The notes below the pieces were generated by a model. That model had not been told where the DNA came from. It searched no databases and saw only the letters and a program-made list of their open reading frames with translations. A stretch of 23,187 bases of DNA from positions 1 through 23,187 of the IMG/VR virus record IMGVR_UViG_3300032087_004408. One strand, written 5' to 3'. Position 1 is the stretch's first letter; every line of letters begins with the position of its first letter. A program made the position numbers and the translations under genes. Positions 1,705-23,187 of the stretch are shown piece by piece. This stretch comes from a virus.

Positions 1705-3633
1705 ATGGCCGTTAAAAGAAAAGCTAACAACGAAAACTCTCTTAAGGAACCTCTGATGGCTGGAGGAGAGATTATTGAGACTGTTGCGTCGACTAGAACT
1801 AGACGCAACAAAGCCGGTCATATCGAAAGGACCGACAGGTACAGAAATATCGATGACGGTATAATTCCTTTCCGCTACTCTCAAGGGGTAACTAATAACT
1901 CTAGTTTAGATATCAGAGATACTATCGTTTTGTGCCAGAAAGCCTATTATAATTTTTCTGTATTCAGAAATACTATAGACTTAATGACAGAATTCTCAAT
2001 GAGCGAGATTTACTTTACGGGAGGCAGTAAAAAATCGAAAGATTTTTTCGATGCTCTGCTTCGTAAAATAAATATTAATAATTTACAAAGTAAATTTTTT
2101 AGGGAATATTATAGATCTGGCAATGTATTCATACATAGATTTGATGCTAATATTTCTAAGGCAGATGCAACAAGAATGTCTCAGACTTTCGGTTTAACGT
2201 CAGACGCCTCCTATACTCTCCCTGCGAGATACATTATTTTAAATCCGGCAGACATACAAATTTCTGGAAACATTACTTTTGCTACGGGCGAGTTCAGAAA
2301 AATCCTCACAGATTACGAACTAGAAAGATTACGCAATCCTCGCACAGAAGAAGATAGGCAAGTCCTCGAAAGCTTTGACGCGGACACTATTAAAAAAATA
2401 AAAGGACAAGGAGGTAAAAAGCCGGGGTATAACGCTGTTAGCATTCCTCTCCCCTTAGATAAAATAACAGCTGTATTTTACAAGAAGCAAGATTACGAGC
2501 CATTCGCTGTTCCTATGGGCTATCCTGTACTAGAAGACATTAACTGGAAACAGGAAATGAAGAAAATGGATATGGCTCTAACCCGCACAACAAACCAAGC
2601 TATACTCTTGGTTACGATGGGAACAGATCCAGAAAAAGGAGGAGTAAATCAAAAGAACTTGCAGGCTATGCAAAAACTTTTCGAGAATGAATCTGTAGGA
2701 CGGGTTCTAATTTCAGATTATACTACCCAAGCTAAATTTGTTATTCCTGATATAGCAGGCATCCTAGATCCCAAAAAGTATGAAGTGTGCAATCATGACA
2801 TACAAATGGGCCTCAATAACATTCTATTGAGCGATGAGAAGTTTGCCAACTCTAGCATCAAAGTGCAGGTGTTTATGGAAAGGCTTAATGAAGGTAGAAA
2901 AGTTTTTATCCATGACTTCCTAATGCCGGAGATAAAAAGAATCTCTAAGGAGATGGGCTTCAAAAACTATCCTACTCCTAACTTCGAAGACTTAGATTTA
3001 AGAGATAATTCTGTTTATGCAAGAGTCTATAGCAGATTGATAGAGTTGGGAGTGCTGACACCTGAAGAGGGTATACAAGCTATTGAGTCGGGACGTATGC
3101 CAACTTTCGACGAGTCTGTAGAATCCCAAGAGAAGTTTAAGGTATATAAAGACAACGGTTTATACGAGCCTGTTCTGGGTAACAAACCGCCGAAAGAAGC
3201 TCCCTCGCAAAAAGCTAAGCCAGTCCCCCAGCCGAAAGGCAGGCCAGAAGGTACCGGCAGACCAAAAGAAACCGACACAAAAAATCCGATCGGCCTGAAG
3301 GCTAATAAGCAATCAAGGTTTAGTTTAAGTAAAATACAAGATAATTTAAATTTGGCTGATAAGCTAAACTTAGAAGTCGAAGCTGCCTTAAGGCAACTAC
3401 ATAATAGAAAAAGGCTCAACAAAACTCAGAAGGAAATTGCTCAGCAGATTTCTAACATAGTAATTCACAATGAGGACCCGGAGAATTGGTTGGCGAAAGC
3501 TGGTAGATATGCAGCCGAACCAGTTGATAGAAATGACGACAGAGTAAAAGAAATTCAGTCTATAGCATACGAACATCAAGTAGACGATTTCTTAGCCGGG
3601 ATACTTTATTGCAGCAAGTATGATGGCGAATAA
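1705..3633 (+). CDS. Portal protein
   Basis: The portal is the dodecameric ring at the unique capsid vertex; it docks the terminase and later the tail. At 642 residues it is in the larger range for portals. Visible portal-like features are the helical stretch at about 76-100 (LCQKAYYNFSVFRNTIDLMT) followed by the wing segment at about 131-147 (FFREYYRSGNVFIHRF), and its place directly after terminase. The C-terminal part departs from a minimal portal: a Pro/Lys/Gly-rich linker at about 492-530 (RPEGTGRP) leads to a helical, charged tail domain of about 110 residues. The ATG has no clear Shine-Dalgarno sequence and sits just after a promoter-like motif. The stop overlaps the next start by one base, so the two genes are probably translationally coupled. 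The assignment rests on fold-like motifs and synteny. Confidence 0.85.
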   Translation: MAVKRKANNENSLKEPLMAGGEIIETVASTRTRRNKAGHIERTDRYRNIDDGIIPFRYSQGVTNNSSLDIRDTIVLCQKAYYNFSVFRNTIDLMTEFSMSEIYFTGGSKKSKDFFDALLRKININNLQSKFFREYYRSGNVFIHRFDANISKADATRMSQTFGLTSDASYTLPARYIILNPADIQISGNITFATGEFRKILTDYELERLRNPRTEEDRQVLESFDADTIKKIKGQGGKKPGYNAVSIPLPLDKITAVFYKKQDYEPFAVPMGYPVLEDINWKQEMKKMDMALTRTTNQAILLVTMGTDPEKGGVNQKNLQAMQKLFENESVGRVLISDYTTQAKFVIPDIAGILDPKKYEVCNHDIQMGLNNILLSDEKFANSSIKVQVFMERLNEGRKVFIHDFLMPEIKRISKEMGFKNYPTPNFEDLDLRDNSVYARVYSRLIELGVLTPEEGIQAIESGRMPTFDESVESQEKFKVYKDNGLYEPVLGNKPPKEAPSQKAKPVPQPKGRPEGTGRPKETDTKNPIGLKANKQSRFSLSKIQDNLNLADKLNLEVEAALRQLHNRKRLNKTQKEIAQQISNIVIHNEDPENWLAKAGRYAAEPVDRNDDRVKEIQSIAYEHQVDDFLAGILYCSKYDGE

Positions 3634-5015
3634 TGTCGACAATTATATACAACGCACAAGGTCTCTTTGTAGGACCATCCGGCGCTAACTTCCAAAGTTA
3701 TACAGGCGGACAACCAGTCTTTGACTATTCCGATCCAGTAACCACAGCAAACCTAATAAAACAAATTGATAGGGTTCAAGCTTTATCTTATGATATAACC
3801 CTGCCTCACACTCAAGTTACTCAGTTTAATACTAGATCTGTAGTAGATAGGCCAATAATAAATTCTCCAGAGGTTAGCTTTGGCTTCTCTTATTTACTTT
3901 CTGACGTTTCTAACGAACAAGAGATGGGGCTCTTCGTTAACTATGCTCAATTTGAAGAGCCTTTTTCTGGCGCTCCGTTCTTTTCTAATAATACTGGACA
4001 AAGCCTAATATCTGGATTCGCAGGAGAAGATGAGACAAGTTCTGATTTTAAAGACAAAAAAAACTATTACTTAGCCGTCAATGATAAACGAGAGGATCTT
4101 TTTACTGGCACGAATTTAGAAGACTTGACAAAAAGATCTAGTTCATCTTACGAGATAGATTTTGAAGCACCGAATCATAAAGTTATATGCTTTGGGAATT
4201 GCTATATGGTGTCTTATTCAGTTGAGGCTTCTGTGGGAGCTTTCCCAAGAGCAGAAGTTTCTTTCGTTGCAGAGAACATTATGTTCGAAACCAGCGGGAG
4301 CGGCTTCTTAAGTCCTACTATAGAAACTAAAAGCGGTGCGCAAATTAATAATTTAAATTCTGTCATACCAAATAGAATAAATAACAACCCTATATCTGTT
4401 GTACGTCCGGGAGATATAAATTTTACGACCGATTCTTTTTCTGGACTAGGTGTTGACTTCGCTAATCTACATTTAGAATCTTATGTAATATCGTTTGACA
4501 TACCTAGGGGCGCGGAGACCAACTTGGGATATAAGTTTCCTTTAAGTAGAAAACTCACTTATCCGATACCCGTTTCAATTGACTTAAATGGGATTGTAGA
4601 AAAGATGAGCTCGGGGTCTTTAATTGATTTAGTTAATTTAAATCAAGATTATGATTTCTCTATAGATTTAAATATGCCCGGGCAAACATGCGCAACTACT
4701 ACGACAGGAATAAAACATGCTAGCGTGCAAGCTTTTGAGGACAGAAACATACCATTAATAAAGTATACTCTTAATAAAGCCAAGTTAAATTCTTTTACTT
4801 ACGATTCTTCAATAGGAAGTAATAAAACATTCTCCGCATCGTTTAGCACTGAACTCGACCCAGACGATTTGACGAGAGGTTTATTTATAAGCGGATTGAT
4901 AGGTCAACGAAAGCTAGAAGATTTCCATTTATTAGAAGGGGGAGATAACGAAAGCTTCTATCTCCTCTTAGAAGACGAAAGCGGAATAATCGTAGATAAC
5001 ATGGTTGCTCGTTAA
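3633..5015 (+). CDS. Internally duplicated tail-tube-like virion protein
   Basis: This 460-residue protein is rich in beta-type sequence and probably a tail or connector component. Two halves carry the same pattern. Residues about 51-85 read YDITLPHTQV...RPIINSPEVSFGF, and residues about 278-320 read YVISFDIPRG...RKLTYPIPVSIDL: a paired-strand element, a Thr/Asn-Arg turn, then a conserved Pro and strand. This resembles two-domain tail tube subunits, but I do not recognise a specific family. It overlaps the portal stop by one base (TAATG) and is followed by a fibre gene. Alternatives are a neck, sheath-like or baseplate protein. The coding call is certain; the function is tentative. Confidence 0.5.
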   Translation: MSTIIYNAQGLFVGPSGANFQSYTGGQPVFDYSDPVTTANLIKQIDRVQALSYDITLPHTQVTQFNTRSVVDRPIINSPEVSFGFSYLLSDVSNEQEMGLFVNYAQFEEPFSGAPFFSNNTGQSLISGFAGEDETSSDFKDKKNYYLAVNDKREDLFTGTNLEDLTKRSSSSYEIDFEAPNHKVICFGNCYMVSYSVEASVGAFPRAEVSFVAENIMFETSGSGFLSPTIETKSGAQINNLNSVIPNRINNNPISVVRPGDINFTTDSFSGLGVDFANLHLESYVISFDIPRGAETNLGYKFPLSRKLTYPIPVSIDLNGIVEKMSSGSLIDLVNLNQDYDFSIDLNMPGQTCATTTTGIKHASVQAFEDRNIPLIKYTLNKAKLNSFTYDSSIGSNKTFSASFSTELDPDDLTRGLFISGLIGQRKLEDFHLLEGGDNESFYLLLEDESGIIVDNMVAR

Positions 5016-9234: not shown

Positions 9235-9648
9235 GTGGCTAGAGAAAATCATATTATGCTAGAGATTGCCTCCTCTGAGAAGGAGACCGCTAAAGATCCA
9301 TTCGTGGATTATTCTTTAAAAGTCAAAAAATATCTAGAAGCAAAAGCCACAGAAGTTAAGGGCGTAGGTATAGAAACTTTAATAAAAGTATTTAAATCGG
9401 CCGCTAGGGATTGTAGCGAAATCAACTATTGTGCTGCCAGAATAAATAACTTTTTAGAAGTGTTCTCTGATTATAAAAATTTTAAAACTGCCGTCGCAAA
9501 TAACTTTGAGCCAAGCGAAGAATGCTTGGCGGCTGCTAAAGTAGAATGTAAAAATCACGGCATAGATGAAATTAAATTTGAAGACGTGGATCAGTTTTAT
9601 CTAGAAACAAAAGACGAATTTAAAAACTCAATCGACATAGAAATATGA
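9235..9648 (+). CDS. Small acidic protein opening the head module
   Basis: The 137-residue product (GTG start) is mostly helical and acidic, with four Cys (in ARDCSEINYCAAR, EECLAAAKVEC) but no recognised metal-binding pattern. An ATG at 9256 is an alternative start giving 130 residues. The GTG lies 8 bases after the promoter-like motif, so the transcript would be almost leaderless from this start. The stop overlaps the next start as ATGA. Being first in the head transcript and coupled to the next head gene, it may be a head-assembly or completion factor, but I recognise no family. Confidence 0.6.
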   Translation: MARENHIMLEIASSEKETAKDPFVDYSLKVKKYLEAKATEVKGVGIETLIKVFKSAARDCSEINYCAARINNFLEVFSDYKNFKTAVANNFEPSEECLAAAKVECKNHGIDEIKFEDVDQFYLETKDEFKNSIDIEI

Positions 9649-11090
9649 TAATTGACTTCGATAAACAAATACTAGAAGCTAAAGAAAAGAAGACTTTGAA
9701 CAAGCCTTTTCGCACACCGGGCGGGCCTAAGAAGTTTTCTGTATACGTTAAAAATGAAAAGGGAAACGTAGTTAAAGTAAACTTTGGCGATCCTAACATG
9801 GAAATTAAACGCGACGACCCTGCTAGGCGTAAAAGCTTTCGTGCTCGTCATAACTGCGATAATCCCGGTCCAAAGACAAAAGCTCGCTATTGGTCTTGCC
9901 AGCAATGGCGCGCCGGTAAAAGAGTTCAGGGGTCAGAAGTAGATTACGAGTGGGACGGTCAAACTTTTTTCGATCACGATGAGCTATTAACGATTAACCC
10001 TGCTTTAGCTTTTGTAGAAGAGGAAGTTAATGACGACGGCGATTGCGGATGTGGTAATTGCGACTGTGATGAAATTGAAGCTAAGATTGATATGAAAAAG
10101 TATAGCTTTAATAATCCCGGCCAAGCTATGCAAATGGCAAAAAAGATGGGATTCGATGATATTCACACTCATGGCGAAGGTGACGATACAGTATTTATGC
10201 CCGGTCCGAGTCATGAAGCCTTGATGAAGAAAATTGGCGGCGCGAAAGCTTCTCACGAAGAAGGTAGTATGATTAAAGCTCAAATAGCTAAATCAATGAT
10301 GCAACTGAGAGAACTTTTCGAAATGATTTCTCAGATGGCTGACACAACTGATTTTGAGCCGTGGGTTCAATCTAAATTTACTAAAGTGGCCGACTACGTC
10401 AATAGCGTTCATAGTTACATGAAATATTATGAAATGGACATGGACAAAACTGAAGCTAAGACTAAGACAGAGCTAAAAGATCAATACGCTAGCCTTTGGG
10501 AAAATATCAAAAAGAAGCGCGATAGAATTAAGTCTGGTTCTGGAGAGAAAATGAGAAAAAAGGGTGCTAAAGGTGCACCCACTTCCGAGCAGATGGAGAA
10601 GGCCAAGAAAGCCTCTAAAATAAAGAAGAAAAGCTATGGCTCAGAAGAGTACGTGATGTCTCAGGAAGAGTTTGATGAAATCATGAGCCTAGAAGAAATT
10701 AGTTTCTGGGCAGAGGAATCTGAAGCAGCAAAACGCCCGGGTAGAAAGTCCGGCGCGCAAACTCCTGCTAAACCTAGTGAAAGAAGAAAAGGTTCTTCTA
10801 AAAATAAACCGGGTAGCGCAGGTAAAAGTGGTCCAGCTATTACTTTCTCAGAGAAGGTAACGAAGTCTCTTAGAGAAAAAGTTAAGAATCATAATGCAAA
10901 GAGCAAAAAGAAAGTTACTCTTTCTCAACTTAAAAAAGTTTATAGAAGAGGAGCAGGCGCGTTCTCTTCTTCTCACCGTCCCGGCATGAGCCGTGGTGGC
11001 TGGGCAATGGCACGCGTTAATATGTTCTTAAAAATGAAGCGCGGTGGCAAAGTAAAAGATTCTTATAGAAAAGCCGACGGAGATATTTAA
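9645..11090 (+). CDS. Multidomain basic head-assembly protein
   Basis: The 481-residue product strings together several blocks I associate with marine phage head operons, but cannot name to an established function. Residues 28-90 (KFSVYVKNEKGNVVKVNFGD, then RRKSFRARHNCDNPGP and a Trp/Cys end) form a compact basic domain with C71 and C85. Residues 134-141 hold four Cys as CGCGNCDC in an acidic patch. Residues about 151-199 contain IHTHGEGDD. Residues about 207-262 are helical (EPWVQSKFTKVADYV). A long Lys/Ser-rich linker leads to a C-terminal basic domain at about 395-481 (KKVYRRGAGAFSSSHRPG). The gene overlaps its upstream neighbour and lies 2 bases from the protease gene, so it is likely a procapsid or internal virion protein. 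Its basic ends could bind DNA. Confidence 0.6.
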   Translation: MIIDFDKQILEAKEKKTLNKPFRTPGGPKKFSVYVKNEKGNVVKVNFGDPNMEIKRDDPARRKSFRARHNCDNPGPKTKARYWSCQQWRAGKRVQGSEVDYEWDGQTFFDHDELLTINPALAFVEEEVNDDGDCGCGNCDCDEIEAKIDMKKYSFNNPGQAMQMAKKMGFDDIHTHGEGDDTVFMPGPSHEALMKKIGGAKASHEEGSMIKAQIAKSMMQLRELFEMISQMADTTDFEPWVQSKFTKVADYVNSVHSYMKYYEMDMDKTEAKTKTELKDQYASLWENIKKKRDRIKSGSGEKMRKKGAKGAPTSEQMEKAKKASKIKKKSYGSEEYVMSQEEFDEIMSLEEISFWAEESEAAKRPGRKSGAQTPAKPSERRKGSSKNKPGSAGKSGPAITFSEKVTKSLREKVKNHNAKSKKKVTLSQLKKVYRRGAGAFSSSHRPGMSRGGWAMARVNMFLKMKRGGKVKDSYRKADGDI

Positions 11091-11092
11091 AA

Positions 11093-12535
11093 ATGAAAAC
11101 TAAGTATACGACTATTTTTAGTTCCCATATTAGGCCGCTAGTGCCTGAAGAAAAAGACCAGCATCTAGCGTTAGCCTCTATGGTTGATTTAGAAAAGTTC
11201 GTCCCAGAAGTAGACACAGACGCCAACTATGATTTGCTGCCTGTAGCGTTTAACGCTTTCGTTGCAAACAGAGTTAATAAAAATGGCGATGTAGTAGATA
11301 CTGAGACAGCTATAGCGATGCACAAAAACTTTATTAACAAGCCTGTTAATATTGAGCATAATCGTAAATCTGTAATTGGCACTATCCTTACGGCAGGTTT
11401 TTCTTCTTTCGGGGATGACAAGCCTCTGACCGAAGAAGAAGTTAAGGATATGAAAGGCCCTTTTAATGTAACTCTTGGCGGAGTTATCTGGAAAATTACA
11501 GATAAAGAGCTTGCGGATAAAATAGAAAATTCCAGCGACCCTACTAGTGACGATTACATGAATATTAGCGCTAGCTGGGAGCTTGGGTTCAACGAATATA
11601 ATATTGTTGTTCTTGAAGCTGAAGAAAAAAATATTGAAAATGCTAGAATTATTTCTGACCCGCAGGAAGTTGAAGCTCACGAAGGTAAGCTGAGAGGTTT
11701 TGGCGGCGAAGGTAAGCTAGAAGATGGATCTTATGTTTACAGAAAAGTAGTAAACAAAGTAGTTCCGTTAGGAATTGGCCTGACCGAAAACCCAGCGGCC
11801 GATGTAAAAGGCGTTCTGGTAGCATCGGAAGATACACAAATTGAAGCCGAAGTTGCCGAACAAAATGAAGAAAAAATTTCCCAAAATACTAAAACAAATG
11901 TAAGTATTCAAAAGGTGGAAGCTATGAAAATAGAAAATATCACAGACATCAATGACGAGTCCTTGCAGACTCTTAAAGCTTCTGCGATTCATGAGTACAT
12001 TCAAGAGAGTCTGAAGGATGCCTCTGAGAAGTTCACTTCTGAGAAGCAAGAAAAAGAAGACGCTCTTGCTGAAGCTAATGAAAAGCATGAAGGTCTGCTG
12101 AAAGAGCACGAAACTCTTAAGGCAGAGCTAGAGTCCGTCAAGGAGAAGTTAGCTTCTCTTGAAACTGAAAAGGTAGAGAGAGAAATGCTAGAGCAGTTCA
12201 ATCAAAGAATGGCCTCCTTCGACGAGCGTTATGACTTGACTGACGAAGACCGCAAGGTTCTCGCTAGTCAGATTAAGGACTTGACCGAAGAGGATTTTAC
12301 CGCCTTTGATCAGAACATGACGGTTCTTCTTTCCTCTAAAGTGAAAACTGAAGAGACTGAAGAAGTTGTAGAAGAAGTAGAAGCTTCTGTTGCTGAAGAA
12401 GTTGTCGAATCTGCTGTCGAAAACGCAGAAGTCGAAAAGGAGACCGTTCCGGTTTCTTCCCCAGCTGAAGAGCCTTCTATTACCGATAAGTATAGTAAAG
12501 CTTTTAGTATCGAAAACTTCGATATCAAACTCTAA
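11093..12535 (+). CDS. Prohead protease fused to scaffold
   Basis: The N-terminal ~240 residues look like an HK97-type prohead protease: a His in PVNIEHNRKSVIG (H89), a Ser in MNISASWELGF (S159 or S161), and a closing GIGLTENPAA block at 227-236. From about residue 278 the protein changes to a scaffold type: long coiled coil at about 300-367 (rich in Glu, Lys, Leu), then an acidic Glu/Val stretch at 418-462 and a short basic C-terminal tail that could contact capsid subunits. The protease would cut the scaffold and itself during maturation. The fusion precedes the decoration and capsid genes, as expected. A strong internal ribosome binding site and ATG at 11924 lie at the domain boundary. GGAG at 11079-11082 may serve the main start. 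Confidence 0.8.
   Translation: MKTKYTTIFSSHIRPLVPEEKDQHLALASMVDLEKFVPEVDTDANYDLLPVAFNAFVANRVNKNGDVVDTETAIAMHKNFINKPVNIEHNRKSVIGTILTAGFSSFGDDKPLTEEEVKDMKGPFNVTLGGVIWKITDKELADKIENSSDPTSDDYMNISASWELGFNEYNIVVLEAEEKNIENARIISDPQEVEAHEGKLRGFGGEGKLEDGSYVYRKVVNKVVPLGIGLTENPAADVKGVLVASEDTQIEAEVAEQNEEKISQNTKTNVSIQKVEAMKIENITDINDESLQTLKASAIHEYIQESLKDASEKFTSEKQEKEDALAEANEKHEGLLKEHETLKAELESVKEKLASLETEKVEREMLEQFNQRMASFDERYDLTDEDRKVLASQIKDLTEEDFTAFDQNMTVLLSSKVKTEETEEVVEEVEASVAEEVVESAVENAEVEKETVPVSSPAEEPSITDKYSKAFSIENFDIKL
11913..11918 (+). promoter_or_regulatory. Internal ribosome binding site for free scaffold
   Basis: AGGTGG lies 5 bases before an in-frame ATG at 11924, inside the protease-scaffold gene. 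It is one mismatch from the ideal AGGAGG and stronger than the sites before many whole genes in this window. Its position exactly at the protease/scaffold boundary suggests it is functional. Confidence 0.6.
11924..12535 (+). CDS. Nested in-frame scaffold protein (internal start)
   Basis: Starting at Met278 of the protease fusion gives a 203-residue product holding only the coiled coil, the acidic region and the C-terminal tail. This mirrors lambda Nu3, which is translated from an internal start within gene C and supplies free scaffold in excess over the protease fusion. Support here is the strong AGGTGG site five bases upstream and the placement of the Met just after the low-complexity linker that ends the protease domain. 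Expression is inferred, not shown. Confidence 0.6.
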   Translation: MKIENITDINDESLQTLKASAIHEYIQESLKDASEKFTSEKQEKEDALAEANEKHEGLLKEHETLKAELESVKEKLASLETEKVEREMLEQFNQRMASFDERYDLTDEDRKVLASQIKDLTEEDFTAFDQNMTVLLSSKVKTEETEEVVEEVEASVAEEVVESAVENAEVEKETVPVSSPAEEPSITDKYSKAFSIENFDIKL

Positions 12536-13148: not shown

Positions 13149-14288
13149 ATGAAGTTGAAATTTAAAAATACTCCAGAGCAGGTTGAGTTGATTAAGGCTA
13201 TGGGCTCCAAGCGTCCAGAAGTTTCTCGTGAAGCTTCTGAGGCTTTTGCTGCTTTCATCGGCCCTGTCATTCAGCAGGTTCTTAGCCAAGCTGACACCGC
13301 TTCGGCTGTTTATTCCGACGTTGTTTACGACGAAGACGACAATCCGAGCTATCCGCTCGATTTGTTCTTCGAGCAAAGAAACGCTGATAACTACATCTCT
13401 GTAGTTCAGCAGAACATTGCTGGTGGTCTTCCGAGTTCTCAAATTGCTGGCGCCAACGAGTTGAAGGTAGCTACCTACAGACTCGATGCAGCTGTTAGCT
13501 TTTTGAAGAAGTATGCTCGCCGCGGTCGTCTTGACGTAGTTAGCAAGGCTGTTGAGCGTATGGCTCAGGAAGTCTTGGTGAAGCAAGAGCGCAATGCGTG
13601 GGCGGTTATCCTTAAAGCTCTCTCTGAGGGTAAAGGCACTGGTTCTAGCAATGGTAACCACATTGTTAATAATGTTGGTAGCACTGAGAGCTTCCAGTTG
13701 GACACCTTGAACGCGATGATTACTCGTATGAAGCGCATCAACAAGTCGTTCGCTGGCGGTACTGCTGCTCAGGTTTACTCTGAAGGGATCACTGATCTTT
13801 TCGTTAGCCCTGAAGTCAAGCAGGACATCAGAGCGTTCTCGTATTCTCCGATTGGTAATAACGCTAATCAGAGTTTGCCAGAAGACGCAAAGAGCGGCGC
13901 TTACAGAGGTGCTGGCCTTGCCAACATCTTCGGTATTAACATCATCGACTTGCAAGAGCTCGGTGTCGGTCAGAAGTACAATACTTTGTACGAGACCTTC
14001 AGTGATTCTGCTGGTTTGGCTGCTGCTGTTAACGAGGCTGGTACTACAACTACTACTGCCTTTAACGACAGTTCTAGCCACGAGGTTATTATCGGTGTAG
14101 ATGCTTCTCGCGAAGCTCTCATCCGCCCTGTCGCTCGTAACGCTGATTCTGGCGCTACGTTCAGCGCTCTGCCGGACGATCAGTTCACTCAACGCGCAGA
14201 CAAGACCGGTTTCTACGGTGCTGTCGAAGAGGGTCGTGTTTGTATCGACGCTCGCGTGCTCGTGGGTGCTCACCTCAAGCGTTCTTAA
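13149..14288 (+). CDS. Major capsid protein (HK97 fold)
   Basis: The 379-residue product is the shell subunit. Length, position after protease-scaffold and decoration genes, and sequence style fit the HK97 fold: a helical N-terminal arm (about 1-45), an extended E-loop-like region (about 60-105), a spine helix (about 125-160, containing VERMAQEVLVKQERNAWAV) and a P/A-domain core with DLFVSPEVKQDIRAF and IFGINIIDLQELG. AGGAGA at 13135-13140, eight bases before the ATG, is a strong ribosome binding site. Codon use is the most biased in the window (CGT/CGC Arg and CTC/TTG Leu instead of AGA and TTA), as expected for the most abundant protein. A terminator follows 22 bases after the stop. Confidence 0.88.
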   Translation: MKLKFKNTPEQVELIKAMGSKRPEVSREASEAFAAFIGPVIQQVLSQADTASAVYSDVVYDEDDNPSYPLDLFFEQRNADNYISVVQQNIAGGLPSSQIAGANELKVATYRLDAAVSFLKKYARRGRLDVVSKAVERMAQEVLVKQERNAWAVILKALSEGKGTGSSNGNHIVNNVGSTESFQLDTLNAMITRMKRINKSFAGGTAAQVYSEGITDLFVSPEVKQDIRAFSYSPIGNNANQSLPEDAKSGAYRGAGLANIFGINIIDLQELGVGQKYNTLYETFSDSAGLAAAVNEAGTTTTTAFNDSSSHEVIIGVDASREALIRPVARNADSGATFSALPDDQFTQRADKTGFYGAVEEGRVCIDARVLVGAHLKRS

Positions 14289-15253: not shown

Positions 15254-17332
15254 ATGTTTAAGTACCAACCAAAAAAAGTTGTAGAAATCCCGCCTATAGA
15301 GTTTAATAGGAGCGTACAGGGACAATACAAGACCAGTGTCATCAACGAAGATGGAACTGTCGACCACGAAAATGGTTGGCACAAGAACTTAATTCTTGAT
15401 TGCGGATTAGACAAGATTGCCTACATGCCGTGGGCACAAGTTTTTCAGTTTTGCGTGGCCGGTGATCAGCCTTCTGGAGTAGTAACCCCTGCAAACACGG
15501 GAGACACTCAGTTAGAACGGCCGCTAATGATGAACTCTTATTATCTGCCCGGAAGTGGTAACTGCGGAGACGATGTTTACCAAAGCGGCGATTATAGATA
15601 CTTAAGATTATTTAGGACTTTCGATTTTCTTCATGTCAAACAAAATACAATTATTACCGAGTTAGGTTTTAAAGAGAGTCCGGGAGCACAGAAACTTTTT
15701 TCAAGAGTTGTATTAGACGGAAACACTGGAGAAGGAAGACCGAATCCAGATGTACTTCGGCCGGGTCAGTTTCTAAGAGTTAAGTACGAATTAAACGTAC
15801 AGCTTGATCCAGTTTATCCTAATGCTTCTGGAGGACAACCTACAGGAGCCGATGGAGCTCTCCCGACTATATCTTGGAGCGGCTCTTCTCAAAGCACAGA
15901 TAGACATGGCTTACAGCATATCGGAATGATAGGTATTAATGAATCTGGAGTCGCTTACCCAGTAGATAACGGCGGCGCTTGTAACGAGCCTTTTGCAGTT
16001 GGAGCAGTTGATTTCGGGCCTAGTTTTGGTTATGTAAATAGATGGCAGAATGGTTTAGGCGTTCTGCATGAAATAAATAGCGGCTACGAATACCCTCATC
16101 CGAATTCAGGAACTCTAGTCCATCCTTCTCTACCTTCTGGTATTATAGTTGGATACAAACAACCAACGGGAGCGCAAAGACTCTCTGATAGACCCGGCCC
16201 TCTTTTAGATCTCGCTCCTCATCAGGACATTAATAGATTTTTAAATCATGACGCTATAACAGGTAGTGGCTTCGTAGGCACGTCTTTTGTAAACTCTCAT
16301 AAAAATATGAGCGGTAAAGCCGGGAACGTAAGCAACGTTACTGATTTAGTTAGCGGAGCTTCTGGTTACTGGCCGTGGGGTAATTATCTTCGTTATCAGC
16401 AATTGGCAGATTTTGCTACTGCTTATGGTATATCGATAGAGAATGAAACTTCGCAGACCGACGGATCCTACGGATACAACAGAATGTTTGTCATTGCAAA
16501 TGCGAACGAGTACTATTATAATTATTTTAGAACTCCATTTTTTGGTTATGGCCCTTTGAATTTTGTTATGACGCCGGTCAGTAAATATGGGACGCAGTTT
16601 CTTTATAATAATTGGGGTATATTTAACCCTTATAACAGCCCGGCTTATGCTACCGCTGGAAATACTAGCGATAGTACTTTATCTTCGCAATACAGTCATC
16701 TGCACAACCTTTTTTCAGAAGAAATAGCACGACATCACGGATATAATAACGGCTCAGTTTGGGGTAGCGATATCAATCATTATACCCAATATTTTAATGT
16801 AACCGACTTCTTTGATCCCGCTGAAAATTCTAGCGTAGGTTCTTATTTGAATTTTGACGAAAAGGTAGTTGTTAGAGGCTACAGCACTGCGGGTAGAAGT
16901 GTGCCATGGGATTCTTGGGATTTAAGGGGAGCTTCATGCTTCTTAACTACTCACACAGGCTTAGTTGCTCCTTTCGGTCAAACGGGTGTTGCTTTCGATA
17001 GATCTGCAGGAGAGGACTTTTACGAACTGCCGCTTAGAAAAGATCCTTATAACCAGTATCAAACTGGCGATACAAGAGAACTTTATAAATTCTGTTTCTT
17101 TGACAACGCAGTTGCGAACTCTGTAGAAAATAGCGTCAGGATACATGAACCTTGGAAAATGGTTGGGGTTGGGGCAACGACAGATTGGTCTATTAACCCT
17201 CTAACCATGAGCGGTGCGGCAAGAGACAATGGTTATGTTTATCGACTCGACACTCCTAGGGATAAAGACAACGATCACATACTAAAGGTTTCTTTCAAAT
17301 ATACATGGACTAGAAATACTGGGCAGCTATAA
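15254..17332 (+). CDS. Large virion structural protein, probable tail or fibre component
   Basis: The 692-residue product carries an N-terminal module of a type I associate with phage tail and fibre proteins. It runs from about residue 22 to 55: GQYKTSVINEDGTV, a short gap, then KNLILDCGLDKI, followed by a Gly/Asp-rich stretch with VAGDQPSG. The remainder is a long polar beta-rich region rich in Gly, Asn, Tyr and Ser with many aromatic turns (for example SGYWPWGNYLRYQQ), and no coiled coil. No enzymatic motif for polysaccharide depolymerase activity is evident. It heads a unit with the next two genes, separated by 6 and 1 bases. The role is inferred as tail or adsorption apparatus. Confidence 0.6.
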   Translation: MFKYQPKKVVEIPPIEFNRSVQGQYKTSVINEDGTVDHENGWHKNLILDCGLDKIAYMPWAQVFQFCVAGDQPSGVVTPANTGDTQLERPLMMNSYYLPGSGNCGDDVYQSGDYRYLRLFRTFDFLHVKQNTIITELGFKESPGAQKLFSRVVLDGNTGEGRPNPDVLRPGQFLRVKYELNVQLDPVYPNASGGQPTGADGALPTISWSGSSQSTDRHGLQHIGMIGINESGVAYPVDNGGACNEPFAVGAVDFGPSFGYVNRWQNGLGVLHEINSGYEYPHPNSGTLVHPSLPSGIIVGYKQPTGAQRLSDRPGPLLDLAPHQDINRFLNHDAITGSGFVGTSFVNSHKNMSGKAGNVSNVTDLVSGASGYWPWGNYLRYQQLADFATAYGISIENETSQTDGSYGYNRMFVIANANEYYYNYFRTPFFGYGPLNFVMTPVSKYGTQFLYNNWGIFNPYNSPAYATAGNTSDSTLSSQYSHLHNLFSEEIARHHGYNNGSVWGSDINHYTQYFNVTDFFDPAENSSVGSYLNFDEKVVVRGYSTAGRSVPWDSWDLRGASCFLTTHTGLVAPFGQTGVAFDRSAGEDFYELPLRKDPYNQYQTGDTRELYKFCFFDNAVANSVENSVRIHEPWKMVGVGATTDWSINPLTMSGAARDNGYVYRLDTPRDKDNDHILKVSFKYTWTRNTGQL

Positions 17333-17338
17333 TGAAAG

Positions 17339-17977
17339 ATGAGTTATGTACTCGGTGATAACATTTTCTGTAACGTCATCAATAGTGGCGTTACAGCTAA
17401 TGACGGATTAGGTGATCCTTTAAGGACTGCATTCTGGAAGCTATTCGCTAATGATTCTGGTATTAGCGGTCACTTAGAACATATTAGTGGTTCTGTTGTT
17501 ACTATAGGAAACGGCCTGAACGACACTGAGATAAAAAAAGTTACTCACTATACAACTGGTAATTTAAACTCAGGAGAATACGCAGATATAAAGTTTACTC
17601 AAGGAACTAACGCGTCTAAAAACGGTAGGTTTGAAGTAGACTTAACAGAAAGCCACTACGGTACAGGTACACCTTATTCTAGTCGTTCAGATATATTGTA
17701 TTCTGGCGGTACAGTTTTTCACCCCGGCGGCTTTGGAAACTTTACACAATGGCGCACAGACTTCCCTGTAGATAAAATAGGCAATCCTTTTAATAGCGGC
17801 GAGTTGGACTATACTGTTAGGGTTATTAACTCTGGAAATTCTAGTAATGGTCAGGCTCCTCTAGTTAGGATTACAAGAACTTCTGACCCTATAAATGAAG
17901 CTGTGTCTGGAGCCGACAGAAGCGATCAATACGGACAAAGTTATCATAAGCTACATATTAGATTAACGGAGTACTAA
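17339..17977 (+). CDS. Fibre-like protein with TANDGxGDPLRTAF module
   Basis: The 212-residue product begins with a motif found at the N-terminus of many phage fibre and tailspike proteins: SGVTANDGLGDPLRTAFWKL at residues 16-35, thought to serve attachment to the virion. The rest is Ser/Gly/Asn-rich and strand-forming. It contains FHPGGFG, echoed by the HPGG motifs in the next gene. The ATG at 17339 lacks a clear ribosome binding site and lies 6 bases after the previous stop, suggesting coupled translation. The gene after it starts one base beyond its stop. It is likely a short fibre or an adaptor for the repeat protein that follows. Confidence 0.6.
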   Translation: MSYVLGDNIFCNVINSGVTANDGLGDPLRTAFWKLFANDSGISGHLEHISGSVVTIGNGLNDTEIKKVTHYTTGNLNSGEYADIKFTQGTNASKNGRFEVDLTESHYGTGTPYSSRSDILYSGGTVFHPGGFGNFTQWRTDFPVDKIGNPFNSGELDYTVRVINSGNSSNGQAPLVRITRTSDPINEAVSGADRSDQYGQSYHKLHIRLTEY

Positions 17978-17978
17978 G

Positions 17979-19877
17979 ATGAGTAACTTCTATACAGCTC
18001 CGCCAATTTATAACACAGGAGGCTGGGGTCAAAGAGGTGACCATCCAAGTTTTGATCCTACCGGTTTAGTAACTGTAAAAGAAACAGGGTTTTACTACGA
18101 AACTAAACTTGAAGCTTTTAATTTTAAAAATAATAATAGACGTCTAAAAGCCGAGATATTTCCAAGCAGTTTTACTTCCGCCTATGATCACGGACACAAT
18201 AGACGAATAAATTTTGAGATTGATTCCAGCTTTACTTCTGCCTACGACTACGGACATAACAGACGTATAGATTTTAAAGTATCTCCTTCTTTACGTAATT
18301 TTATTGGTACGCATTTTAGGAAAATTGTCGCAAAGAGTTCTGTCGGTGATTTTTTTAATTTCGCAAATAGAAATGTATATAAGTCTAAACTATCTCCTAG
18401 TTTAAGTGATACGTTTTTAATAAAGCCAGTTAACCCTTATATTCTCTCTACTATACAGCAAGGAATAACTGCGTCTCGTACCCCGTTTGTACGCGCTAAA
18501 TCTTCCGTAGCGGCAAGTTCGACCCTCTTTGAGAATGAGTTTAAACGTTTATTCTCGTCTGTAGGTTTTTCTCATCCGGGAGGCTTAACATTATTTGATG
18601 CTAGGCAGATGGACCAAAACTCGCTAATTAAAAATAAACTAAGTTTTAGCTCGACTATATTTAAAAACAGAAAATTTTTTGGGATTACATCTGTAAGTTT
18701 TGCTCATCCCGGAGGAGTAACATTATTTGATACTAGAAGTATGGATTCCGGGCCATTCTCTTTAAGTAAACCAGCTTTGGAGGGTATATATAATATTAAA
18801 GATAAAGCGCAAAGATTCAGAGCGTTAAACTCGCCATCGCTTGAGGGAATTTTTAATTTTGGAAGTCTTAAAAAACGATACAGGCTTGGTAAAAGCGAAT
18901 CTAATTTAGAGGAAATTTTTAATTTCGAAAACCTTAAGAAACGATACAGGCTTGGTAAAAGCGAGACTAAGCTTGACGGAATTTTTAGTTTCGAAAATCT
19001 TAAAAAAAGATATAGGCTCGGAAAAAGTGAATCTGAGCTTAGCGAAATTATTAAGTACGAAAGAAAATTTGGCAAAGCAAAGTCAAGTGTAGCGCCGACC
19101 ATTTCAAGTGTTAAAACTCCTTTTAATAGAGTTAATTTTTTATTAAACCCAAAATTAAATTACATACTTGATTTAAATTCTAAAAATAAATATACGATAA
19201 ATATCGACAAGATATCAAACGTTAAAAAATTAGTCAATCGTTTCGATAGCACTATTTCTTTAAAAAATATATTTAAGATTCCAAAAAGAAGAGTTTTTAC
19301 AGATTATAGAAGTAATTTATCGAATATAACTAGACTACGTTCTAAAGAGGTAGAAAAAAATATTTTTAATCCTCGAGGCAGACAAAACGTTAATTTTCCT
19401 ACCGGACTACATTTCCCCAAAATTAGATACCAAACCGTTGAGCCTAGTTATATAAAACCGACAGGAGCAGAGTATTTGCCAGAAGGGGGTATTGATAGAA
19501 ATAACATAGGCCAGCTAGTTTATGAAGGGATAGAGAACGGAAATTTATTCTATTATGAACCTGATGAAAATGCAATGCGCTGGGAGTATTTTGATTTTGA
19601 TGTCAGGAGTGGTATTTTTAACCCTTGCGAATTCCCAGAAACGGCAGACAGAACTTTAGACCCTGTTCAAATCAGCTCTAGGTCAAATAAAGGAGATAAC
19701 CCTTATTGGTATCTACCAGATCTTTTAACGGTAGATTCTACAATTCATACCGCAGACGGGGCGCCGTGTCAGTACATAGCGCAAGAAAATAGCAGATTCG
19801 CAGAAATATTTTTAGAAGACGGAGCACTGCTTCTTCCAGAAAACTATACTCAAACAGGAGCTATATTTACTGTATGA
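17979..19877 (+). CDS. Basic repeat protein of unknown function, probable fibre or stalk
   Basis: I recognise no family for this 632-residue protein. After a short N-terminal segment, residues about 35-475 are made of degenerate 18-22-residue repeats with the pattern L-x2-[IA]-F-x-F-x4-[RK]-[RK]-x-[KR]-x3-S-x-S. Copies include FTSAYDHGHNRRINF and FTSAYDYGHNRRIDF (20-residue period) and three near-identical units at 297-362 (LKKRYRLGKSE, 22-residue period). Two longer copies carry HPGG (H199 and H243, 44 residues apart, two units). The repeat region is strongly basic. Residues about 476-632 are an unrelated, acidic, Tyr- and Trp-containing domain ending at the C-terminus. GGAG at 17968-17971 precedes the ATG by seven bases. 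The regular spacing suggests a solenoid or beta-hairpin stalk in the virion. Confidence 0.6.
   Translation: MSNFYTAPPIYNTGGWGQRGDHPSFDPTGLVTVKETGFYYETKLEAFNFKNNNRRLKAEIFPSSFTSAYDHGHNRRINFEIDSSFTSAYDYGHNRRIDFKVSPSLRNFIGTHFRKIVAKSSVGDFFNFANRNVYKSKLSPSLSDTFLIKPVNPYILSTIQQGITASRTPFVRAKSSVAASSTLFENEFKRLFSSVGFSHPGGLTLFDARQMDQNSLIKNKLSFSSTIFKNRKFFGITSVSFAHPGGVTLFDTRSMDSGPFSLSKPALEGIYNIKDKAQRFRALNSPSLEGIFNFGSLKKRYRLGKSESNLEEIFNFENLKKRYRLGKSETKLDGIFSFENLKKRYRLGKSESELSEIIKYERKFGKAKSSVAPTISSVKTPFNRVNFLLNPKLNYILDLNSKNKYTINIDKISNVKKLVNRFDSTISLKNIFKIPKRRVFTDYRSNLSNITRLRSKEVEKNIFNPRGRQNVNFPTGLHFPKIRYQTVEPSYIKPTGAEYLPEGGIDRNNIGQLVYEGIENGNLFYYEPDENAMRWEYFDFDVRSGIFNPCEFPETADRTLDPVQISSRSNKGDNPYWYLPDLLTVDSTIHTADGAPCQYIAQENSRFAEIFLEDGALLLPENYTQTGAIFTV
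18117..18290 (+). repeat. 20-residue (60-bp) repeats in basic repeat protein
   Basis: The segments TTTACTTCCGCC (18171) and TTTACTTCTGCC (18231) are exactly 60 bases apart and open two near-identical units (FTSAYDxGHNRR). Diverged units lie on both sides (FNFKNNNRR before, LRNFIGTHFRK after). Confidence 0.75.
18801..19064 (+). repeat. 22-residue (66-bp) tandem repeats in basic repeat protein
   Basis: Three units of exactly 66 bases begin at 18867, 18933 and 18999, each starting with the codons for LKKRYRLGKSE. A more diverged unit occupies 18801-18866. The DNA of the three is much alike, pointing to recent duplication or ongoing homogenisation. Confidence 0.9.
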
Positions 19878-19905: not shown

Positions 19906-22900
19906 ATGGCCGGTACAAGGATAACGCAATTCCCGAATCTAGCTTCGGGGGATTTGGCTTCAGAAGACGTCTTATTAGTAGTAGACGTCAGCGATACTTT
20001 TTATTCTCCTAGCGGCACTAACAAGTCCACTACAGTAGGAGATCTTTCTAACTTCTTTAACACTCAAGACACTTTTATAGGGTTAGGAGACACTCCCGCA
20101 TCTCTTGGTAGCGCAGGACAATCAGTTGTTGTATCTGCGGACGGAAACTCTTTAATATTCTCTGGAATAACTGGAACAACTGGAGAGGCTGGAGGGGGAG
20201 GATCTACCAGCTTCGTAGGGCTTACCGATACGGCAGATTCTTTAGGCTCAGAAGGACAAGTGACCGTAGTTTCTGGAAGTGAGATAGTATTTTCTGGCAT
20301 AGGGCATTTAGTTTCTAGAAGCGAGCTTTCTGACTATGTGGCTACTAGTCAAACAGGAAATTTTGTAACTTCAAGTCAAACAGGGGATTTTATAACTTCG
20401 GACCAAACTGGAAATTTCGCAGGAGCCAGAACAACATTTTTAAGTTTAGACGATACGCCCGATTTAATAGGTAGCCCCGGCCAAGCTGTTGTTGTTTCTC
20501 CCGGAGGCGGAAATTTAACATTCTCAAGTGTCGTAGGTGGCGGGGCTTTAGCTTTTACCGGCCTAAACGATACTCCTTCTGGACTAGGAAGTGAAACTCA
20601 AGCCGTTGTTGTTTCTGGTACGGGACTAGCATTTTCTGGAATACCTTTAAACTTTACAGACTTAGACGACACAGTAGGTAGCTTAGGGATAGAGGGACAG
20701 GCTTTAGTGATGTCAGGGGGCGTTTTAGGATTCTCCGGAGTTACCCTCACATCTACAACCGTGGTTTCCGGCACGGGGGCTTTTACTAATTTTTCTCAAT
20801 TAAATGACACGCCTTCAGTCATACCAGAAAGCCAGCTAGTTATTGGTGGACCTACAGGCAACCTAGTTTTTTCCGGAGTAGAGTCTTTTGTTCTCACTGG
20901 AGAAACAGGAAATTTCGCAAACACAACAACATTAGAAAGTTTCACTGAAGGTCTTAACGTAGGTACAGATTCGAGCTTGTCAGGAAGAAAACTTCATGTG
21001 GTAGGCGACGTTGAAATTTCAGGAACAATTTTCCAAAGCGGGTCGATATTTGAGGGTGGGGGAGGATCTAGCACTTTTACTGGTCTTTCAGACACTCCTT
21101 CTGGCTTGGGTTTAGCTGGGCAGTCAGTAGTCGTTTCTGCTGACGGAAACTCTCTAATATTTTCTGGCATAACTGGAAGTAGCGGCGGAGGCGGAACTAC
21201 CATTATCTCTGGAGAAACTACTGCTAACAGTGGAATATTAGGAAACGACTTATTTACTGGCGACGGAGTAAAAACTGGGTTCATGATGACTCGGGCTCCG
21301 CTAAACGCTTTTAGCATAACAGTAGCAGTAAACGGTTTGCTACAAGCACCGGGAACCAACTATGATTTAATAAGTGGTAGAAGCGGATTATTATTCCCAG
21401 AAGCTCCTTCTAGCGGCGTAGAAATAGATGTTCGTCATTTGGGAGGTTTAGTAGGCCCGTCTGGAGAACAGGGTATACAAGGAGAAGTAGGAGCGACTGG
21501 ACCAACAGGATCGACTGGGCCAACTGGGCCAACCGGGCCGACAGGCCCAACTGGACCAACCGGGCCGACTGGACCAACTGGCCCATCCGGAGCGACAGGC
21601 GCAACTGGTCCTACAGGGCCAATAGGGCCGTCTGGAGCTACCGGCGAAAGAGGTCCCCAAGGGTCTGGTATAGTGGGAGCTTTAGCCTCTGATATATTTA
21701 CTGGCGATGGGTCGACAGCAAGTTATAATTTAACAAACAGTATAGGCGAAGCTAAGAATATTATAGTAAGTATTAACGGATTGTTACAATCGCCGATAAC
21801 CAACTATACAATCAGTGGCTCAGGTTTAACTTTCCCAGAAGCTCCATCTAGTGGACTGGAGATAGAAGTTCGCCATCTTCAAGGTATACAAGGCCCTACC
21901 GGCGCTACCGGTCCCTCAGGGTCTGGAGGAGCTACTTCTTTTGTCGGTCTTAGCGACACTGTAGGGAGTCTAGGTATAGAAGGTCAAGTACCAGTCGTAT
22001 CTGGTACAACTTTAGCGTTCTCAGGAATAACGGCAGGCACTACTTCTTTTGTAGGTCTTAGTGATACTGTAGCGAGCTTAGGTTCAGAAGGTCAAGTACC
22101 AGTTGTGTCCGGCAGCACTTTGGCATTCTCAGGAATAACAGCAGGGTCAAGTGTGGACCTTTCGGCTGTCGATCAAAATATCGTTCCTGACGCTACAAAT
22201 ACTCGAGACCTAGGAACAACAGGTAAAAGATGGAGAGACCTTTATTTATCCGGCACTTCTATATACTTAGGCCAACAAGTACTTCAAGAGTCTGGAGGAG
22301 TTTTGAAGCTAAGTACTAATAACGGCTCAACTTTTTCAAATGTCACCACTAAAGCAGTCGCTGATGATGATTATGTCTCAATAGCAAGTTCATCCAATCA
22401 AGCTGTTTACGATTTTGATAGTACAGCTAACTTTAATAATACTTCTGCCGAATTTTCGGCTGGGATGTTGAATCCCGCAACTGGCGGAAGACTGGAGCTA
22501 GATTTAGCTACCGGCATGTTTATAGAAGAGTATAGCAATACAAATAATATAGATACAGATAATAGTAGTAGCTATGCAATAGATGGGAAAGCAAAAATAG
22601 AACAGCAGTTAAATACGGGAGACGGGTCAGACGGAGATGTGACTGTTTCAACATCGGGAACTTACACGATGGATACAGACAGTTTGATAGCGGGAAGAAC
22701 AGTCGCAGATGCGGTGGCTTTTAACGCTGATTCATTTACCACTAATACTGTTGTTTTGACCGACACTCCGAGTGGTATTGCCGCGGGGGACGAAGTAATA
22801 ATTTATTGCGCGCAAGGTTACGGAACTCATAATCGAACTTCTGGAAATACTGCGCCGAATAGCAGAAGAGTTAACGTAGGCAATTATGAATTCTTGACAG

Positions 22901-23187
22901 TAGATTCTGTAGATTCTAGTAGCAAGACAATAACTTTTACTACTACTAAGGAAAAATATTACGGAAACGCATCAGGTTCAGATAGTACTATCGGAACAGG
23001 AGGCAGTGAAATGAAAGTCATTGTCCAACGAGTTCCTCATTACGCGAACTTAACCGTAGGTGAAAGTGCCACTATGACTGCCAGCAAGTGGAACGGCACT
23101 AAAGGAGGTTTGATGATTTTTAGAGTAGGAGGGACTCTTACAAATAATGGAACTATAGATGCTGGGGGTATTGGGTATAGAGGGGGT
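19906..23187 (+). CDS. Long modular fibre with collagen-like stretch (3' partial)
   Basis: The frame stays open for 1094 codons to the window edge, so the true protein is longer. Residues 1-45 (TRITQFPNL...[10 protein letters not shown]...TTVGDL) are an N-terminal anchor like that of the fibre at 5045. Nine copies of a ~33-residue module follow (GLxDTPxxLG then VVVS then FSGI). A short run of TG repeats lies at about 147-175. Residues 517-588 hold 24 uninterrupted G-X-Y triplets, mostly GPT, flanked by two copies of a domain with FTGDG, VNGLLQ and [25 protein letters not shown] motif at about 765-780 is common in phage fibres. The last visible part is a beta-rich domain ending in GGIGYRGG, the style of a Gly-rich receptor-binding tip. 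It would trimerise through the collagen-like segment and bind the host surface. Confidence 0.8.
21454..21669 (+). repeat. Collagen-like G-X-Y coding repeat
   Basis: Glycine codons fall every 9 bases from 21454 to 21661 without a break, giving 24 G-X-Y triplets. Those at 21499-21588 are mostly Gly-Pro-Thr with very similar DNA (GGNCCNACN). A second short run of five triplets is at 21883-21927. No host collagen processing is needed; Thr-rich G-P-T collagen-like stalks are known in phage fibres. Confidence 0.95.

Follow-up and report, generated by a model that had tools for sequence, protein, structure and literature searches.

An open reading frame at positions 17979-19877 (+) of a 23,187-base virus record, the whole of which we call the window, is intact and encodes a 632-residue protein in which both ends are conserved while a long, basic and length-periodic middle varies from phage to phage. 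Judging from sequence comparison and from analogy with known systems, we consider that this protein has about an even chance of being a fibre or adhesin subunit on the virion surface of a presumed lambda-type siphovirus, because it lies in a fibre-gene neighbourhood, an upstream gene has tail-fibre relatives in phiKMV-like phages, and its design is of the type reported in pelagiphage fibres.

Architecture and periodicity of the 632-residue protein

The sequence GGAG (17968-17971) stands seven bases 5' of the ATG of this reading frame, and the encoded protein divides into three parts (Table 1). Residues 37-468 have a pI of 10.3, with 77 Lys and Arg residues against 36 Asp and Glu residues, and are encoded by AT-rich DNA (GC 0.324, compared with 0.407 for the whole window); the C-terminal part has a pI of 4.2. 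Autocorrelation of the protein peaks at lags of 22 (z 7.3), 44 (z 6.6) and 20 residues (z 3.3), and its maximum was reached by none of 1000 shuffles. In sliding windows the best period lies between 18 and 22 along nearly all of residues 37-468, with z ranging from about 1 to 13 and some weak places. These results bear out the sequence-only reading in describing a repetitive basic protein with a different, acidic C-terminal domain.

Table 1. Features of the 632-residue protein gene and of its neighbours in the window
Feature	Positions	Strand	Basis
Conserved N-terminal segment, residues 1-36 (MSNFYTAPPIYNTGGW...SFDPTG)	17979..18086	+	Aligns in all four homologues
Variable basic repeat region, residues 37-468, local period 18-22	18087..19382	+	Autocorrelation, local period, ~25% identity to homologues, GC 0.324
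Two 20-residue units (SFTSAYDxGHNRRIxF)	18168..18287	+	Sequence
HPGG unit, two copies 132 bp (44 aa) apart	18558..18745	+	Repeat family D3
66-bp tandem array, 3.4 copies (SLEGIFNFxxLKKRYRLGKSE)	18839..19062	+	77% matches
Conserved acidic C-terminal domain, residues 469-632	19383..19874	+	74-80% identical to homologues
Upstream tail-fibre gene, phrog_4176	15254..17332	+	Matches in phiKMV-like Stenotrophomonas phages; homologue in L100
Upstream gene, N-terminus resembling L100:9546-10436 (which matches T4 gp9/10-N)	17339..17977	+	Sequence comparison
Downstream collagen-like fibre gene, open at window end	19906..23187	+	PHROGs and Pfam matches

The finer repeat structure proposed earlier holds in part. 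Of the strict 60- and 66-bp periods, the latter is a genuine array (3.4 copies, 77% matches), but the former amounts to one pair, with SFTSAYD at residues 64 and 84; similarly, the HPGG copies at residues 199 and 243 are indeed spaced by 44 residues, but this 132-bp period, like the 60-bp one, comprises two copies only. The motif L-x2-[IA]-F-x-F-x4-R-R, said to recur along about 440 residues, has no exact match in the protein, and a relaxed form is found at residues 44, 288, 310 and 332 (four matches, against 0.016 expected from shuffles). Hence, residues 37-468 are periodic in length, with no uniform motif array spanning 440 residues. Comparison of unit with unit revealed more synonymous than non-synonymous change (dS 0.65 and dN 0.15 for one pair, with others similar or saturated, all imprecise at about 13 synonymous sites per pair), and the repeat units therefore look to be maintained at the protein level.

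Two AlphaFold2 models were obtained, each of a single chain and of low confidence. The full-length model, from three sequences, was unusable (pLDDT 26), and the model of residues 265-374 alone (pLDDT 51) contained two short helices per 22-residue unit; a Foldseek search with the latter returned no PDB match (best E 9.3). The hydropathy periodicity of the repeats clearly indicated neither helix nor strand, and repeat-unit alignments across family members were too poor for use in folding.

Conserved ends and a rewritten middle in four family members

Searches of the protein against Pfam (E 1), NCBIfam and PDB sequences produced nothing of note, and PHROGs yielded weak matches of unknown function only (best E 0.006), in agreement with the earlier statement that the repeat belongs to no named family. 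No cultured-phage relative was present among 50,697 phage records, and a whole-protein scan of viral contigs found no homologue. Three homologues, L004, L086 and L088, were obtained through the neighbours of capsid relatives and by scanning with the conserved C-terminus, while neither more distant relatives of the major capsid protein nor 52 genomes of the family of a metagenome-assembled genome (MAG) supplied further members. That MAG, assigned to Flavobacteriales, includes L086 (NZWA01000041.1), a 77-kb relative, as one contig; that bacterium is a candidate host, although the contig may be misbinned. All homologues found occupy the same slot of related phages, beside fibre genes. From these comparisons, the protein represents a real, unnamed and apparently lineage-restricted family with four known members.

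All four members share the 36-residue N-terminus and the acidic C-terminal domain of about 160 residues, which is by far the best conserved part of the window protein. Residues 1-50 are identical to L086 at 28 of 50 positions, and likewise to L088, and residues 551-600 are 92–98% identical to the homologues. Compared with L086 in 50-residue bins, identity drops from 28/50 at the start to 5 of 31 aligned residues at 251-300 and climbs to 49/50 at 551-600. The four middles, of 358–432 residues, are all basic (pI 9.6–10.3) and have best periods of 22, 19, 18 and 18, although the whole-middle period of L086 was not significant (equalled in 118 of 1000 shuffles), its local windows reaching z 5.6. 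Identity between middles is about 20–30%. Against shuffled sequences, the alignment of the L086 and L088 middles is clear (p ~2e-12), and those of the window middle are moderate with L086 (3e-4) and L088 (4e-3) and weak with L004 (0.02). Because these scores exceed those of shuffles, the four middles probably share ancestry, though heavily rewritten.

Extreme variability in a fibre-like gene could also arise if the gene were the target of a diversity-generating retroelement. This origin is very improbable, since neither the window nor three related virus fragments, all of them incomplete records, nor the bacterial assembly that includes the 77-kb relative yielded a reverse transcriptase; furthermore, the units vary in length and number, not just at scattered positions. 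The basic, aromatic-rich middle, net positive in all four members, might instead suit an internal DNA-binding or genome-condensing protein, but we regard such a function as very unlikely: the gene sits among fibres, the conserved domain is acidic, and rewriting between otherwise similar phages is not expected of internal proteins.

Fibre-gene neighbourhood and unequal divergence of adjacent genes

The window has the gene order of a tailed phage, with terminase-like, portal-like and presumed major capsid genes followed by fibres. The large terminase-like reading frame matches phage terminases weakly, the portal-like protein has a weak PHROG match, and the presumed major capsid protein (13149-14288), which has 261 relatives in viral contigs, is so named from its position and these many relatives rather than from a family match. 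The relatives of gene 15254 in phiKMV-like Stenotrophomonas phages are annotated as tail fibres, and the 632-residue reading frame is apparently part of a fibre-gene operon. The collagen-like gene downstream of it contains G-P-T triplets, 27/54-bp arrays and a 108-bp tandem duplication at 21932-22145. A central tail protein of the lambda J-like type (E 2.6e-127) is encoded by the 77-kb relative, as are tail assembly, minor tail and tape measure proteins, and on this basis we regard the window virus as a lambda-type siphovirus. We infer that the phage is marine from the sources of its relatives rather than from its own record.

In the 77-kb relative, the fibre cluster (28–52 kb) follows the major capsid gene and precedes the tape measure and tail-tip genes. 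Because the cluster sits between capsid and tail genes and not after the tip, a head or neck fibre would also fit, and the protein could be a capsid- or neck-attached decoration. In that case the conserved domain would bind to a head protein that is itself conserved, and the basic repeats would touch polyanionic surfaces, for example lipopolysaccharide or mucus, weakly and without specificity. The strong conservation of the C-terminal domain and the basic character of all four middles agree with such a decoration, which we consider possible but doubtful: gene order says little about where a protein sits in the particle, the relatives of the upstream gene are annotated as tail fibres, and the repeat protein in the corresponding slot of phage L100, described below, does not show this charge.

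Two further observations concern this part of the genomes. The protein encoded after the portal (window 3633-5015) is 30% identical (E 3e-51) to L093:15480-16718, which lies ahead of the tape measure gene of the 77-kb relative; neither protein has a PHROG match, and the two may be paralogues of a structural or tail-tube-like kind. Several proteins of similar appearance, about 360–390 residues long, are encoded in a row by L092/L093 (G021:C12, about 39.3–52.3 kb), in the stretch that separates the fibre cluster from the tail genes; the one that was compared with PHROGs resembles virion structural and baseplate families.

Simple Nei-Gojobori estimates of dS between the window and L086 are 0.44 for the major capsid gene and 0.48 for gene 17339, whereas fibre gene 15254 and the 632-residue protein gene are saturated or nearly so. 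With synonymous divergence so unequal from one gene to the next, the substitution pattern is mosaic, which suggests that phages have exchanged some of their host-interaction genes. The joint divergence of fibre 15254 and the 632-residue protein gene, together with the adjacency of the fibre genes, might also reflect an accessory or chaperone-like protein whose variable middle co-varies with the neighbouring fibre while its conserved domain acts in assembly. We think this unlikely, as no chaperone family was matched in PHROGs, Pfam or NCBIfam, and chaperones are usually small rather than hundreds of residues of repeats.

The same slot was found in L100, a more distant phage (126,921-bp contig) with a homologue of the 15254 fibre (48% across the first 259 aligned residues). 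There, the fibre is followed by a protein with a T4 gp9/10-type N-terminus (9546-10436) and then by a 501-residue repeat protein (10455-11960), which has strict 19-residue repeats at 15 successive positions and is D-rich and poor in charge. It resembles the window protein in its length-periodic repeats and in its place behind a fibre homologue and a gp9/10-N-like gene; it differs in its strict period and its charge, and homology was detectable in neither the middle nor the C-terminus. A candidate C-terminal homology (pairwise E ~0.01) was rejected, as 30 of 1634 shuffles scored as high. From sequence comparison, L100:10455-11960 is thus a positional counterpart rather than a recognisable homologue. 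The charge-poor L100 protein shows that proteins with length-periodic repeats can occupy this slot even when they are not positively charged. Following it in L100 (11957-16441) are five successive proteins of about 290–300 residues with an N-terminus akin to that of the gp9/10-N-like protein.

Putative role and comparison with known fibres

If the protein is a fibre or adhesin, its N-terminus and its C-terminal domain of about 160 residues would probably attach it to the particle, oligomerise or bind a partner, and the middle of 360–430 residues, built of 18–22-residue units, would form a shaft or display surface. This middle would change as units are duplicated or lost, by point changes and through exchange with other phages, and such change would probably alter contact with the host surface. 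The stalk suggested by the sequence-only reading would be in keeping with the neighbouring genes and with a middle that is variable yet periodic in length. Polyanion binding, which that reading proposed on account of the positive charge, may or may not apply: the middles of all four members are basic, but the D-rich repeat protein of L100 has few charged residues. Several points count against a fibre: no known fibre or adhesin sequence was matched, only four members are known, the C-terminus is the most conserved part while usual fibres vary there, and the weak model of residues 265-374 (pLDDT 51) is predicted to be helical while fibre shafts are usually of beta structure.

A bolder and rather unlikely proposal is that the family represents a class of surface proteins with an inverted fibre plan, in which N- and C-terminal modules are conserved and the middle is selected for unit length (18–22) alone, leaving sequence and charge free, such that related phages swap solenoid-like display surfaces with the attachment domains untouched. 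Should the protein prove to be a virion adhesin, it would be a case of a phage remodelling the central part of a surface protein, through exchange and turnover of repeats, with both ends unchanged. It would then lend itself, as a natural system, to finding out where in such a fibre the specificity lies, and would provide unnamed repeat scaffolds that have no relative among PDB sequences.

Among known systems, collagen-like phage fibres (PF01391) include the neighbouring gene 19906; the 632-residue protein, however, has a period of 18–22 and neither G-x-y triplets nor a Pfam match. Triple beta-spiral shafts of the adenovirus type are trimers of intertwined beta structure with a repeat of about 15 residues and resemble the putative fibre in being length-periodic shafts of a surface fibre, but the period here is 18–22 and the one weak model is helical. 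A close design is reported for pelagiphage tail fibres: after a conserved N-terminal domain come repeats that are particular to each phage and share no sequence similarity (PMC3909814); there too, a marine tailed phage carries a fibre gene cluster encoding a conserved end and a dissimilar periodic region. Pelagiphage fibres differ in having a T7-type N-terminus (PF03906), which the 632-residue protein does not match (Pfam, E 1), and a variable receptor-binding C-terminus, where that of the present protein is strongly conserved. Thus, the unnamed protein combines a conserved end and phage-specific repeats with a conserved C-terminal domain, and from its sequence it is best read as a novel variant within the known class of variable-repeat phage fibres.
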